A model generated the notes under the pieces. It worked only from the letters and a program-made list of their open reading frames with translations, ran no database searches and had not been told where the DNA came from. From the NCBI GenBank assembly GCA_013816275.1, contig JACDER010000023.1, positions 1-10,382 of the forward strand: a stretch of DNA of 10,382 nucleotides. Reading direction: 5' to 3'. Origin of the DNA: Actinomycetota bacterium (GTDB lineage: Bacteria > Actinomycetota > Thermoleophilia > Gaiellales > Gaiellaceae). Below, in pieces: positions 2,360 to 6,649 of the stretch (positions are counted from its first letter, which is position 1; each line of letters begins with the position of its first letter). Both the position numbers and the translations under genes were made by a program.

Positions 2360-3385
2360 ATGATCACGATGGAGGAAAGGAACGTGGACGCGCCCGAGGC
2401 AAAGCAAAAGGCGACCAGGATGAGGGCGGTCGTCCACGAGCGGTACGGCCGGCCCGACGTGCTCGAGCTCCGCGACGTCGACGTGCCGGAGATCGAGGAC
2501 GATCAGGTGCTCGTGCGCGTATGCGCGGCATCCGTCAACCCGGTCGAGTGGTACGGGGTGACCGGACCGATCTTCGCGCGTATCGGGGGCGGGCTGCGGC
2601 GGCCCAAGATCACGTCCGTGGGAGCCGATCTGGCGGGGCGTGTCGAAGCCGTCGGCAGAGACGTCAAGGACCTCCGGCCCGGTGACGAGGTCTTCGGCAC
2701 CGGCAGCGGCGCGTGGGCCGAATACGCGCCCGCCCGCGAGGCTCGTCTGGCGGTGAAGCCGGCCGGCGTCTCGTTCGAGGACGCGGCGGCCGTGCCGGTT
2801 GCGGGGCTCACCGCCCTCCAGGGCCTGCGCGACCACGGCGAGGTCCAGCCCGGGCAGAAGGTTCTGATCAACGGCGCGTCCGGGGGCGTCGGCACCTTCG
2901 CCGTGCAGCTCGCAAAGTGGTTCGGAGCCGACGTGACCGCCGTCTGCAGCACGAGGAACGTGGAGCTCGCCTGGTCGCTCGGCGCCGACCGCGTCGTCGA
3001 CTACACGCAGGAGGACTTCACGAAGCGCGGCGAGCGTCACGACCTGATGCTCGACATCGTCGGGAGCCGCTCGTTCTTCCAGTGCAGACGAGTATTGACG
3101 CCCGAGGCGACCGTCGTGCCGATCGGCGGGCCGATGACATATCGAGGGCTCGGGCCTCTGCCTCACCTCGCCGGAACGATCTTGAAGTCGAAGGGCCGGA
3201 GCCAACGGGTGAAGTTCTTCGTCGCCAAGATCGGGACAGAGGATCTCGGCTTGCTCGCGGAGCTACTCGAGGCCGGAACCGTGAAGTCCGTGATCGACAG
3301 GCGCTACGAGCTGAGCCGGGCTGGCGAGGCCCTCGCGTATCTCGGAGAAGGGCACGCACGGGGGAAGATCATCATCACCCCGTGA
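2360..3385 (+). CDS. Zinc-free MDR family NAD(P)-dependent oxidoreductase (quinone oxidoreductase type)
   Basis: A 341-residue medium-chain dehydrogenase/reductase. The N-terminal GroES-like domain runs from about residue 21 (MRAVVHERYGRPDVLELRDV) through VRVCAASVNPVEWYGVTGP and GADLAGRVEAVGRDVKDLRP to GDEVFG. The nucleotide-binding domain has INGASGGVGTFAVQLAK (170-186), the glycine-rich Rossmann loop, and later LGADRVVDYTQEDF. The catalytic-zinc ligands and structural-zinc cysteine cluster of true alcohol dehydrogenases are absent, so a quinone or enone reductase of the QOR type is the likely chemistry; the substrate is unknown. The ATG at 2360 follows GGAGGAG (2351-2357). Homologs usually begin near Met21, so the first 20 residues are an extra charged extension, or translation starts later. 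It is divergent from the TetR gene and probably controlled by it. Confidence 0.92.
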   Translation: MITMEERNVDAPEAKQKATRMRAVVHERYGRPDVLELRDVDVPEIEDDQVLVRVCAASVNPVEWYGVTGPIFARIGGGLRRPKITSVGADLAGRVEAVGRDVKDLRPGDEVFGTGSGAWAEYAPAREARLAVKPAGVSFEDAAAVPVAGLTALQGLRDHGEVQPGQKVLINGASGGVGTFAVQLAKWFGADVTAVCSTRNVELAWSLGADRVVDYTQEDFTKRGERHDLMLDIVGSRSFFQCRRVLTPEATVVPIGGPMTYRGLGPLPHLAGTILKSKGRSQRVKFFVAKIGTEDLGLLAELLEAGTVKSVIDRRYELSRAGEALAYLGEGHARGKIIITP

Positions 3386-3398
3386 GCGCTATGGCGAG

Positions 3399-4793
3399 CT
3401 AGAAAACGCCCCAGTTCGCCTTCGCGGATGCTGACGGGATAACAACCCAAACGTCGCTCCCGCCGCCGGGTCGATTCGCGATGTGGGCGCTCCCGCCGTG
3501 TGCCTCGGCGACGGTCTTGGCGATCGACAGGCCGAGCCCGGAGCCCGAACCGGAGCGCCCTCGGTCGAGGCGTGCGAACCGGTCGAAGGCCTGCTCGGCG
3601 AAGCCGGGCGGAAACCCGGAGCCGTCGTCTCGGACGTGCAGCTCCACGGCTCCGTCGGTGGCGGCGGCCGAGAGCTCGACGCGCCCCGCCCCGTGCCGGA
3701 GGGCGTTGTCCACGAGGTTTCCGAGGGCCTGCTCCACTCGCAGGCGGTCGGCCTGCACCCTGAGCCCGCCGGCGGCCTCGATGACGATCGGCCGGCCCGC
3801 CTCTTCCGCGCGCCAGCCGAATCGCGCGGCGACCTCGCCGAGCAGCGACCCCACGTCGATGCTCTCGAGGTTCAGCGGCAGCCGCCCGCGGTCCGTGCGC
3901 GCGATCAGCAAGAGGCCCTCGGCGAGCTGCGCGAGCCGGTCCACCTCCTGTGAAGCCAGTCGAATCGCCTCCCTGAGCTCCTCGGGTGAGCCGCCGTGGC
4001 GCAGCGCGAGCTCGAGCTCGGTGCGAAGCAGAGCGAGCGGCGTTCGCAGCTCGTGGCCGGCATCGGCGACGAACTCCCGCTCGCGGCTGAGAACCTCCTC
4101 GATCCGCCCGAGCATCTCGTTCAGGGTCTCTGCGAGCCGCTCGATCTCGTCGTGCGTCCTCGGCACCGGCAGCCGGCGCTCGATGCTCTCCCCCGAGATC
4201 GCAGCGGCGCGCCGGCGCATCCATTCGACCGGCCGGAGGGACAAGCCCGCGAGGAAGTAGCCGGCGAGGGAGGCGAGAGCGAGTGCGGTCGGCCCCACGA
4301 TCAGCAGCAGATCGCGCAGGCTCGCCTGCGTCTCCTGGTTGTTGCCGAGCGTCGCGCCGACGGCGAGCACCTCCGTCTTTCCGCCGATCCGGAGCGGCGT
4401 CGCGAGCAGCCTCGATGCCTCGTCCAGGCCGGGAACCGTGGGCTTGTCGACGGAGGTCTCCCTGGTGAGCGCGCGGCGAACCTGCTCGGTTGTCAGCAGC
4501 GGCGCCCGGCCGATGGGCTGCGTCCACTGGAGCACGCGACCCCGGGAATCGAGGAGCTGGGCGTAGGACTCCCCGCGCTCGACCAGCCGGCCGCCGCTCG
4601 CAGCCGTCAGCGACCCGCCGTGGCGGACGAGCGCGGCCAGGTCCTGCGTGCGAAGCCTGAGGTCCTGCGCGAGTGAGCTGTCCAGATGCGAGCCCAGACG
4701 CGCGTACACGAACGCGCCACTGCCCGCGAGCACCACGGCCATCGCCAGCGCGAAGGCCGCCGCTACCCGCACCCGGATCGGAATCCGGGTCAT
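3399..4793 (-). CDS. Two-component sensor histidine kinase (HAMP, class I)
   Basis: A 464-residue membrane sensor kinase. Membrane helix 1 lies at about 11-33 and helix 2 at about 161-183; the roughly 125 residues between them form the extracytoplasmic sensor domain. A HAMP linker follows (184-238, starting LSLRPVEWMRRRAAAIS). The H-box is FVADAGHELRTPLALLRTEL with phospho-accepting His247. The ATPase domain shows the N-box NLVDNALRHG (359-368), the G1 box DDGSGFP (389-395) and the G2 box GSGSGLGLSI (415-424). It would phosphorylate the response regulator encoded just upstream. The genes overlap by four bases (ATGA), so they are translationally coupled. The signal is unknown; the PepSY and secreted proteins beside it suggest an envelope or extracellular cue. 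It ends 13 nt from the convergent MDR gene. Confidence 0.95.
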   Translation of the reverse strand: MTRIPIRVRVAAAFALAMAVVLAGSGAFVYARLGSHLDSSLAQDLRLRTQDLAALVRHGGSLTAASGGRLVERGESYAQLLDSRGRVLQWTQPIGRAPLLTTEQVRRALTRETSVDKPTVPGLDEASRLLATPLRIGGKTEVLAVGATLGNNQETQASLRDLLLIVGPTALALASLAGYFLAGLSLRPVEWMRRRAAAISGESIERRLPVPRTHDEIERLAETLNEMLGRIEEVLSREREFVADAGHELRTPLALLRTELELALRHGGSPEELREAIRLASQEVDRLAQLAEGLLLIARTDRGRLPLNLESIDVGSLLGEVAARFGWRAEEAGRPIVIEAAGGLRVQADRLRVEQALGNLVDNALRHGAGRVELSAAATDGAVELHVRDDGSGFPPGFAEQAFDRFARLDRGRSGSGSGLGLSIAKTVAEAHGGSAHIANRPGGGSDVWVVIPSASAKANWGVF

Positions 4794-5452
4794 GCGTCCG
4801 CCCGGAGCCGGTAGCCGGCGCCGCGCACCGTCTCGAGCGCCTCCCGTCCGATCTTCTGCCGGAGATGACGGATATAGACGTCCACGATGTTCGAGCGGTT
4901 CTCGTAGGCGAAGTCCCAGGCGTGCTCGAGCAGGTGCAGCCGTGAGAGAACCTCACCCGGCCTGCGCATGAAGGTCTCGAGCAGGGAGAACTCCTTGGCC
5001 GAGAGGCGGAGCTCCGCGCTGCCTCGCCAGGCTCGTCGCGTGGCGGGGTCGAGCCGGAGATCCCCGACCTCGAGGATGGCCGGCCGTTCCTGGTCTCCCC
5101 GGCGAACGAGCGCGCGCAGGCGCGCGAGCAACTCCGCGAAGGCGAACGGCTTGACGAGGTAGTCGTCCGCCCCGGCGTCCAGCCCTTCCACCCGGTCGCC
5201 GACCGAGTCGCGGGCGGTCAGCATGAGGATGGGAACCCAGATGCCCCGGTCGCGGAGGCTGCGGCTCGTCTCGAACCCGTTGATCCCTGGCAACATCACG
5301 TCGAGAACGACGGCGTCGTAGTCGTGCGCCTCGGCCATCCAGAGCGCGTCCTCGCCGCTCGAGGCCACGTCTGCGGCCAGCCCCTCCCTCGTGAGCCCTC
5401 TGCGGATCAGTCCCGCCATCCGCAGCTCGTCCTCGACGATCAGCACGCGCAC
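4790..5452 (-). CDS. OmpR/PhoB family response regulator
   Basis: A 220-residue DNA-binding response regulator. The receiver domain (1-115) has the acidic pair E7/D8 in VLIVEDE, phospho-acceptor Asp51 in AVVLDVMLPGINGFE, Thr79 in LMLTARD and Lys101 in DDYLVKPFAFAELLARLRAL. The C-terminal winged-helix domain (about 127-217) has LRLSAKEFSLLETFMRRPGE and the recognition helix region NRSNIVDVYIRHLRQKIG, ending ETVRGAGYRLRADA. OmpR-type regulators bind as head-to-tail dimers to direct repeats about 11 bp apart, which is what lies upstream of this gene and of two neighbours. The start is GTG (5450-5452) with no good ribosome-binding site; a -10-like hexamer at 5459-5464 would place transcription at the GTG itself, giving a leaderless message. 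Its stop overlaps the kinase start. Confidence 0.95.
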   Translation of the reverse strand: MRVLIVEDELRMAGLIRRGLTREGLAADVASSGEDALWMAEAHDYDAVVLDVMLPGINGFETSRSLRDRGIWVPILMLTARDSVGDRVEGLDAGADDYLVKPFAFAELLARLRALVRRGDQERPAILEVGDLRLDPATRRAWRGSAELRLSAKEFSLLETFMRRPGEVLSRLHLLEHAWDFAYENRSNIVDVYIRHLRQKIGREALETVRGAGYRLRADA

Positions 5453-5458
5453 GGCTGA

Positions 5459-5490
5459 ATCGTCTCACCAAAAGATGAACGTCGGATGAA
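5459..5490 (-). promoter_or_regulatory. Response regulator promoter with an 11-bp direct repeat
   Basis: Read on the minus strand, TTCATC (5485-5490) and TTCATC (5474-5479) form a direct repeat of 11-bp period, TTCATCCGACGTTCATC. Nine nucleotides further (5465-5473) comes the -10-like GACGAT (5459-5464), and six nucleotides later the GTG start of the regulator. No TTGACA-like -35 box is present; the proximal repeat lies in its place, as expected for an activator-dependent promoter. This implies positive autoregulation and a leaderless transcript. The -10 hexamer is the weakest of the three related promoters. Confidence 0.6.
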
Positions 5491-5492
5491 TT

Positions 5493-5522
5493 GTGGGTGG
5501 CGCCCGTCGAGGCGCCACCCAC
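5493..5522 (-). terminator. Perfect 12-bp stem hairpin after the PepSY gene
   Basis: Arms GTGGGTGGCGCC (5493-5504) and GGCGCCACCCAC (5511-5522) are perfectly complementary around a 6-nt loop. On the minus strand the hairpin begins 8 nt after the PepSY stop and ends 2 nt before the direct repeat of the response regulator promoter. There is no U-tract after it, so it is an I-shaped (U-less) terminator of the kind often proposed in actinobacteria, or an attenuator or mRNA 3' end stabiliser. It would separate abundant PepSY message from the two-component genes, which have their own promoter. Confidence 0.65.
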
Positions 5523-5530
5523 GCTTGGGA

Positions 5531-5833
5531 CTAGCCCTGCTCCGAGTCGATCTCGGATGTGATCGGCTTGAACGCGGAGTCCAGCCACACGTCCCGGACC
5601 GATCCGTCCGAGGCGTGCACCTCCACGTCGTAGGTCGCACCGTGCTCGCCGTCCGGCTCGACCGAGCCTGCGCGGCCGCCGCCGAGGTACTGGACGGCTG
5701 CCGACCGTGCCTGGTCGGCACTCGTTCCCTGAACCTGGGGATCCTCGCCGCCCGTGGCGAGGGCGGCTCCTCCGCCCGCGAGCGAGCCTGCGACGACGAG
5801 TCCTGCGATCACGTACAGCTTGCGCTTTCTCAT
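5531..5833 (-). CDS. Exported or membrane-anchored PepSY-domain protein
   Basis: A 100-residue protein with an N-terminal signal or anchor (RKRKLYVIAGLVVAGSLAGG, residues 2-21, running on to about 27) and one PepSY-like domain (about 37-92): TSADQARSAAVQYLGGGRAG, then TYDVEVHASDGSVRDVWLDS and the end FKPITSE. PepSY domains were first seen in propeptides of M4 peptidases; small free-standing PepSY proteins are often coded beside two-component systems and are thought to modulate peptidases or sensors outside the membrane. The ATG at 5831-5833 has a good ribosome-binding site (GGGAGG, minus strand), so I reject an upstream in-frame ATG that would add 23 residues and run through the promoter. It is upstream of and in line with the response regulator and kinase, and divergent from a secreted protein; the same regulator box appears on both sides of the gap. 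Confidence 0.88.
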   Translation of the reverse strand: MRKRKLYVIAGLVVAGSLAGGGAALATGGEDPQVQGTSADQARSAAVQYLGGGRAGSVEPDGEHGATYDVEVHASDGSVRDVWLDSAFKPITSEIDSEQG

Positions 5834-5858
5834 TCGTACCTCCCTATTGGTTGCCCCG

Positions 5859-5890
5859 ACGGTAGGAGGCGCAGATGAAATGACCGTGAA
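5859..5890 (-). promoter_or_regulatory. PepSY promoter with an 11-bp direct repeat
   Basis: On the minus strand TTCACG (5885-5890) and TTCATC (5874-5879) are 11 bp apart. Nine nucleotides later (5865-5873) comes the -10-like TACCGT (5859-5864), the same spacing as in front of the response regulator and the secreted protein. Transcription would start near 5852, giving a leader of about 19 nt that contains the GGGAGG ribosome-binding site. No consensus -35 is visible, consistent with activation by the response regulator bound over that position. Confidence 0.6.
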
Positions 5891-5897
5891 CGCCGTT

Positions 5898-5929
5898 TTC
5901 ATCAGGCGTTCATTTCAGGTGCCTAGCTT
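5898..5929 (+). promoter_or_regulatory. Secreted-protein promoter with an 11-bp direct repeat
   Basis: On the plus strand TTCATC (5898-5903) and TTCATT (5909-5914) form the 11-bp repeat, followed by 9 nt (5915-5923) and a -10-like TAGCTT (5924-5929). Transcription would start near 5936, about 20 nt before the ATG, leaving room for the GAAGGAG ribosome-binding site (5945-5951). It is arranged back to back with the PepSY promoter. An extra feature is the perfect inverted repeat TGAACGCC (5887-5894) and GGCGTTCA (5905-5912), which ties one box of each promoter together. Confidence 0.6.
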
Positions 5930-5956: not shown

Positions 5957-6649
5957 ATGAGACGAGTTCCAGGATTTGCAATCGCCATCCTCGCTGCCGC
6001 TGGGCTCGCGGCCGGCACGGCACAGAGCAGGCCGTCCAAGCTGCCGTTCGTTCCTGCCAATTCGAGCGCCAGGATCGACAACCGCTACTGGCCGATGAAA
6101 CCCGGAAGCCGCTGGGTCTACCGTGAGGGCGCCGCGCGTGTCGATGTCACCGTCCTCTCCCGGACCGAGAAGATCCTCGGGATCGAGACCAGAGTCGTGC
6201 ATGACGTCAAGAGCGAGAACGGAAGGGTGATCGAGGACACGTACGACTGGTACGCCGAGGACCGCAAGGGGAACGTCTGGTACATGGGCGAGGCGACGAA
6301 GGAGTACGGAAACGGCCGGATCGATACGGCGGGCTCCTGGCGAGCCGGCGTGCACGGCGCGCGGCCCGGAGTCATCGTCCCGGCCCACCCGAGGATCGGA
6401 GTCTCTTACCACCAGGAGTATCTGGAGGGCCAGGCCGAGGACAACGCGCGCAATTTGAGCGTCGACGAGCAGGTCGGGGTCCCTCAAGGGCACTACAACA
6501 AGGTGTTCATGACGAGGGAGACGACCCCGCTGGAGCCGAAGCTGCTCGAATACAAGTTCTACGCGCCGGACGTCGGGCCCGTCCTCGCCGTCGCGGTCTC
6601 GCCCAAGCCGGACACCGAGCAGCTCGTCAGCTTCAGGCGCGGTGGGTAG
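5957..6649 (+). CDS. Secreted protein of unknown function, divergent from PepSY and its two-component system
   Basis: A 230-residue protein with a clear signal peptide: MRRVPG, then the hydrophobic core FAIAILAAAGLAAG (7-20), with cleavage likely near TAQS (21-24). The mature part begins with aromatic-rich NRYWPMKPGSRWVYREG (42-58), then TEKILGIETRVVHDVKSENG (70-89) and DTYDWYAEDRKGNVWYMGE (94-112). The closing segment EPKLLEYKFYAPDVGPVLAV (193-212) resembles beta-strand-rich lipocalin-like or DUF3108-like envelope proteins. I know similar proteins only as unnamed exported ones and assign no reaction. There is no lipobox cysteine, so it is probably released or held by partners. The ATG has a strong ribosome-binding site (GAAGGAG at 5945-5951). 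A promoter of the same design as those of PepSY and the response regulator suggests it is a main output of this system. Confidence 0.88.
   Translation: MRRVPGFAIAILAAAGLAAGTAQSRPSKLPFVPANSSARIDNRYWPMKPGSRWVYREGAARVDVTVLSRTEKILGIETRVVHDVKSENGRVIEDTYDWYAEDRKGNVWYMGEATKEYGNGRIDTAGSWRAGVHGARPGVIVPAHPRIGVSYHQEYLEGQAEDNARNLSVDEQVGVPQGHYNKVFMTRETTPLEPKLLEYKFYAPDVGPVLAVAVSPKPDTEQLVSFRRGG

Follow-up and report, generated by a model that had tools for sequence, protein, structure and literature searches.

Genes and promoter elements of the locus

The window (the whole stretch of 10,382 bases that was analysed) contains a two-component system, a gene coding for a small PepSY protein and, divergently oriented, a gene coding for an exported protein. 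The genes and promoter elements are listed below, the bit scores of the boxes being those of a matrix built with the window excluded.

3399..4793, minus strand: sensor histidine kinase (HAMP, HisKA, HATPase_c; two membrane segments)
4790..5452, minus strand: OmpR/PhoB-type response regulator (GTG start; Response_reg and Trans_reg_C)
5459..5464, minus strand: weak -10-like element GACGAT of the regulator, 9 nt after the box and 6 nt before the GTG
5474..5490, minus strand: regulator-promoter box TTCATC-N5-TTCATC (half-sites 5490-5485 and 5479-5474; 21.7 bits)
5531..5833, minus strand: PepSY_MTB domain protein, 100 aa (N-terminal hydrophobic stretch; NCBIfam NF051432)
5859..5864, minus strand: -10-like element TACCGT of the PepSY gene, the identical word being found at the PepSY genes of relatives (e.g. 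L289, L297, L305)
5874..5890, minus strand: PepSY-promoter box TTCACG-N5-TTCATC (14.2 bits)
5898..5914, plus strand: exported-protein-promoter box TTCATC-N5-TTCATT (15.7 bits)
5924..5929, plus strand: -10-like element TAGCTT of the exported-protein gene (read from the sequence)
5957..6649, plus strand: exported all-beta protein, 230 aa, without a Pfam or NCBIfam family

The original prediction placed an 11-bp direct repeat and, 9 nt further on, a -10-like hexamer at three promoters of this locus, and all of them are present. In full, the sites read TTCATC-CGACG-TTCATC-N9-GACGAT for the regulator (5490-5459, minus strand), TTCACG-GTCAT-TTCATC-N9-TACCGT for the PepSY gene (5890-5859, minus strand) and TTCATC-AGGCG-TTCATT-N9-TAGCTT for the exported protein (5898-5929, plus strand). 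Inspection by eye also agreed with the prediction in that none of the three window promoters has a TTGACA-like -35. The regulator mRNA would be leaderless or nearly so, because GACGAT lies only 6 nt before the GTG, while the PepSY gene starts at an ATG at 5833 preceded by a Shine-Dalgarno-like GGAGG.

The regulator combines a receiver with a winged-helix Trans_reg_C domain (E 1.3e-28 and 1e-23), which is the architecture of the OmpR/PhoB family. Its best NCBIfam model is TIGR01387 (czcR/silR/copR), and since the score of 227.4 bits lies under the cut-off of 279.2, assignment to this heavy-metal subfamily was rejected, as were the PhoB equivalog (TIGR02154, 190.5 bits for a cut-off of 296.2) and the CreB equivalog (160.8 bits for a cut-off of 273). 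The kinase has hydrophobic segments at about residues 10-28 and 159-180, with the H-box at about residue 247.

The small protein had been proposed to belong to the PepSY proteins, and its score against PepSY_MTB (NF051432), 78.9 bits for a cut-off of 60, confirms this. The window protein by itself reaches E 0.002 with Pfam PepSY, which is below the cut-off, and all 12 members of its alignment match that family at E ≤0.1 (best 2.4e-9). A total of 36 homologs were found, and the gene adjoins the two-component system both in the window and in relatives such as L280, L284 and L292. When the profile was compared with solved structures, the best matches were 2lra/2kgy (E 6.9e-19 and 1.1e-18), and UipA (7ath) was matched with E 4.4e-6.

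For the exported protein, no match was obtained up to E 10 in Pfam or up to 0.1 in NCBIfam, and 2239 homologs were found, the family being present in 61 of 299 genomes of the class and 43 of 296 genomes of the phylum. Its structure prediction was built from 58 of 120 listed homologs (of the 2239), and comparison of its profile with solved structures gave a single marginal match, 4kd5 (E 0.08). The best reading is that of a putative LolA/YmcC-like beta protein. The family is expanded in genome G065, where seven matches are found, several of them located after YTCATC-type boxes (L178, L183, L195).

Elsewhere in the window, the region 2281-2345, located before a quinone-oxidoreductase-like gene (2360-3385) and near a TetR-type regulator (1373-2047), contains repeats of the types TTACGTTGTACGTTGTAG and TTACGCCGTACGCTTACACCGTA, which by eye could represent a TetR operator.

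Conservation of the repeat at regulator promoters

The regions surrounding 60 homologs of the exported protein were collected, and 28 of these regions contain a homolog of the regulator (47-82% identity). Promoters were compared for a set of 28 regulators with more than 50% identity, including the window and L034. A hexamer repeat of period 11 with at least five of six matching letters is found in 25 of these 28 promoters, and with all six in 17, while the other periods (6 to 21) are found in 1-7. Of the 23 pairs of YTCA, 22 have their members 11 apart. The matrix derived from 23 regulator boxes (window excluded) reads YTCATC-N5-YTCATC, of which the window carries the TTCATC variant. Some regulator promoters, such as those of L155 and L174, have no clear repeat. 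Arrays of 3-4 half-sites with the 11-bp period occur seven times in these loci, compared to 0 for the reversed-word control.

The sequences upstream of 118 regulators were then compared for the presence of TCA-N8-TCA, according to identity with the window regulator. The motif precedes the window regulator and 22 of the 27 others with at least 60% identity, 8 of the 9 with 53-60%, and 4 of the 81 with less than 53%, this distant class being drawn from the best 80 of at least 596 matches of a search with the regulator, most of which were distant. Among these 81 distant promoters, 20 match period 11, compared to 9-17 for other periods. Loss of the repeats or of their spacing in relatives had been named as what would refute the prediction; instead, the repeat precedes most of the orthologous regulators and many target genes. 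Box presence tracks the regulator clade, which points to the linked regulator as the probable reader of the boxes, in line with what had been proposed from the window alone.

Three regulators with 56-58% identity (L223, L224 and L238) have TTCAGC half-sites in place of YTCATC, while others of this class (L173, L243 and L055) keep TTCATC, which indicates that the half-site can change with the regulator. The same three and the more distant L233 (49-58% identity for the group) have TTCAGC-N5-TTCAGC and adjoin a gene of the exported-protein family. The boxes at regulator promoters start 37-47 nt before the start codon, a distance which suggests leaderless or short-leader mRNAs.

Repeat and spacing at target genes

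As the 23 boxes of the matrix had been picked by TCA-N8-TCA, the matrix was tested on other genes. Upstream of the exported-protein homologs, a site of at least 12 bits is present in 34 of 60 cases, compared to none of 60 with the reversed matrix; among 260-bp segments taken at random from these loci, with the true sites left in, 2.5% reach this score. Sorted by locus, boxes are found at 19 of the 28 exported-protein genes with a regulator and at 15 of the 32 without a regulator in the stretch examined. Of the 26 homologs without a 12-bit box, some follow the PepSY gene in one direction (L158, L163, L165).

For the PepSY genes, a profile of 12 members, chosen as lying behind a box, was searched against 249 genomes of the class, of which 73 matched. 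Thirty loci were returned, and the 21 that were not among the 9 already in the profile were tested. A box of at least 12 bits precedes 13 of these 21 genes (reversed matrix: 0/21), and the two genes known from exported-protein loci are both among the 8 lacking one.

The predicted step of 9 nt between the repeat and the -10 element stands as the dominant spacing at the target genes, but not as a fixed value at the regulator promoters, where it varies from 8 to 10 nt. After 31 exported-protein boxes, TA is found at 9 nt in 18 cases, and all the remaining offsets between 0 and 15 together account for two. After the 13 PepSY boxes, read by eye, it is found at 9 nt in 11 cases and at 10 nt in L307, L294 having TT. 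After 24 regulator boxes, xANNxT occurs at 9 nt in 13 cases, at 8 nt in 5, at 10 nt in 5 and at 3 other offsets; the resulting 23/24 for 8-10 nt counts offsets, of which one box can supply two. The sequences thus have the repeat in the place of the -35, at a step from the -10 for which 9 nt dominates at the targets and 8-10 nt is seen at the regulator.

Occurrence in the genome and across the class

Within the 10,382 bases of the window, TTCA-N7-TTCA occurs in three places, which are exactly these promoters, each with a -10 element 9 nt on. Among 400 sequences of equal length generated with a first-order Markov model, it occurs 0.04 times on average and once at most, and never with the -10 added. 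The observation at the three promoters is far beyond chance.

The assembly from which the window is taken has 1,785,353 bases in 342 contigs and is 64.55% complete. A search of this assembly for the repeat together with the -10 had been suggested as a check, and TTCA-N7-TTCA-N12-ANNNT returned these three sites only, to which the relaxed YTCAY-N6-YTCAY-N11-ANNNT adds none (reversed-pattern control 0 for both). When the -10 is omitted, YTCAY-N6-YTCAY gives 8 matches against 6 for the control, and none of the 5 extra ones in the assembly has a -10 at the right step. The repeat alone is therefore unspecific, while the combination of repeat and -10 is specific.

Across the class, TTCAY-N6-TTCAY-N11-ANNNT matches in 100 of 299 genomes, at no fewer than 150 places by hand count compared to 16 matches for the control. 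Among 249 genomes, 22 contain the strict pattern YTCATC-N5-YTCATC-N9-TA, at 27 places altogether, compared to 2 for the reversed control; the genome of the window has no strict match because its boxes are looser. According to our reading of the genes behind the 27 strict boxes, 7 belong to the exported family, 6 to the PepSY genes and 1 to the regulators, and 1 is a probable relative of the exported family (L276). The other 12 places precede genes for ABC ATPases, a sulfatase, membrane proteins, a glycosyltransferase or a small exported protein, or are at a contig end or unclear. Since strict boxes also precede other genes, the regulon may be wider in relatives, or the box may be common to related regulators. 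In L272 and L273 (genomes G081 and G098), a strict box precedes related genes for multi-span membrane proteins, a possible further target.

Some of the class-wide matches to the looser pattern lie outside this system: in three sister genomes (L212, L213 and L214, from G135, G009 and G141), TTCAY-N6-TTCACA boxes with the 9-nt step precede another OmpR-type regulator (L212 and L213) and genes which, by eye, code for a multicopper oxidase and for cupredoxin-like and DUF305-like proteins (L213 and L214). These boxes indicate that the grammar is common to several regulators, the half-site letters and the gene neighbourhood giving the specificity. With a CcdA-like gene, also assigned by eye, the three loci have a copper-linked look and form a candidate second regulon using the same grammar.

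Proposed regulation and alternative explanations

We consider it probable, from the sequence comparisons, that the three repeats are operators of the linked regulator, which would activate its own gene, that of the PepSY protein and that of the exported protein. An envelope signal would lead the kinase to phosphorylate the regulator, molecules of which would line up head to tail on the half-sites and take the part of a -35 in recruiting RNA polymerase, as in PhoB-like class II activation. Via an mRNA with no leader or hardly any, this would amplify the regulator and the kinase, and it would also induce both the PepSY protein and the exported beta protein. Weighing against this reading are the target genes that lack a 12-bit box, the boxed genes in loci where no regulator was seen, the regulator promoters with no clear repeat, the variable spacing at the regulator and the similar boxes used by other OmpR-type regulators in sister genomes.

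Other explanations can be considered for the same boxes. Two-copy short repeats commonly arise at random, and the repeat without its -10 is at control level in this assembly; the Markov, reversed-pattern and reversed-matrix controls and the conservation in relatives nevertheless contradict chance or a compositional artefact, which is hardly conceivable as an explanation. That the boxes are PHO boxes read by the phosphate regulator, which would place the locus in the phosphate regulon, is highly improbable. PHO boxes are likewise 11-nt direct repeats, with a unit GTTCACC in Streptomyces coelicolor, as given in PMC4415409, but the half-site here is YTCATC, which has a conserved T and C at the positions occupied by two C in GTTCACC. 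Box presence also follows the clade of this regulator, and within its own assembly, which may lack 35% of the genome, the composite pattern occurs only at this locus.

The boxes could also be read by a paralog among the OmpR-type regulators, such as the copper-linked one found in sister genomes. The boxes of L212-L214, which have the same spacing and precede another OmpR-type regulator and copper-like genes, point in this direction, as does the finding that, for 15 of the 34 exported-protein genes with a box, the region examined contains no regulator. However, the second half-site of L212-L214 differs (TTCACA), the window's assembly has no other such site, and most orthologs have the box at the linked regulator's own promoter, so we regard this alternative as unlikely. 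Finally, the regulator could repress the three promoters, with negative autoregulation, as RNA polymerase can likewise be blocked from sites that overlap the -35 and the sign of regulation is unreadable from sequence. No -35 is visible by eye, and a constant distance to the -10 is what an activator replacing the -35 requires, which makes repression very unlikely.

Beyond activation by the linked regulator, more speculative roles can be suggested for the two target proteins. By analogy with DbfQ and DbfS, the PepSY protein may act back on the outer domain of the kinase, and the exported protein might carry or bind an envelope ligand. It is possible, if rather doubtful, that a single actinobacterial envelope-sensing loop comprises the regulator and kinase together with the PepSY protein and its LolA/YmcC-like exported neighbour; in this loop, the exported protein would capture an envelope lipid or other ligand and set the kinase output together with the PepSY protein. 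If this were true, a two-component system would have as its sensor or effector arm a large exported family that has no name.

The analysis provides a precise and testable candidate operator for an actinobacterial module of two-component system and PepSY protein, to which it ties an exported family of 2239 homologs whose window member has no Pfam or NCBIfam match. The grammar, with its period of 11 bp and a last half-site 9 nt from the -10, permits the prediction of members in uncultured genomes, and half-sites that differ between regulators (YTCATC, TTCAGC) could help in studying specificity shifts among OmpR-type regulators.

Comparison with known systems

According to PMC4415409, a PHO box is made up of two units of 11 nt to which the regulator binds in head-to-tail fashion, with PhoB contacting sigma. 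The boxes of PhoB/PhoP and those described here share the 11-nt direct repeat units, and differ in the half-site, which is CTGTCAT or GTTCACC in that source and YTCATC in the 23 boxes of the matrix; on this ground and that of the PhoB score of the regulator, the locus was not assigned to the PHO regulon. The cre/blr tag of CreB/BlrA, TTCACnnnnnnTTCAC as given in PMC3660660, shares the period and, almost completely, the core. The exact TTCACN6TTCAC tag is however found in 0/3 window sites and the partner genes are others, and with 160.8 of the required 273 bits CreB/BlrA identity was rejected. The locus appears, as judged from sequence, to work like PhoB/PhoP and CreB promoters, and it is outside both families by the tests run.

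The UipRS-UipA system of Microbacterium likewise has a two-component system beside a PepSY protein in actinobacteria, and its UipA is the 7ath structure matched by the PepSY profile (E 4.4e-6). According to PMC8963506, UipRS lies upstream of UipA, and its role in uranium sensing is not yet shown. UipA has tandem PepSY domains and binds uranyl, whereas the window protein has one PepSY domain; the descriptions of the system that were consulted name no operator. In DbfQRS of Vibrio cholerae, a small exported PepSY protein is located next to a positively autoregulated OmpR-type two-component system, and DbfQ binds the outer domain of the kinase directly, a property shown for DbfQ only (PMC12714742, in part). 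That system differs in being Gram-negative and in that dbfQ is co-operonic with dbfRS, while the PepSY gene of the window has its own promoter.

The module belongs with these PepSY-linked two-component systems (DbfQRS, UipRS-UipA). The best structural match of the window PepSY profile is a 'possible exported protein' of M. tuberculosis (2kgy/2lra), which we take to be Rv0603, beside TcrA, and whose locus was compared by description only. The sensor set of TcrA is named Rv0600c-Rv0603c in the section of PMC10743970 that mentions it. As far as the open-licence literature shows, the novelty lies in the proposed operator, in its being conserved at three genes and in the connection with the exported family.
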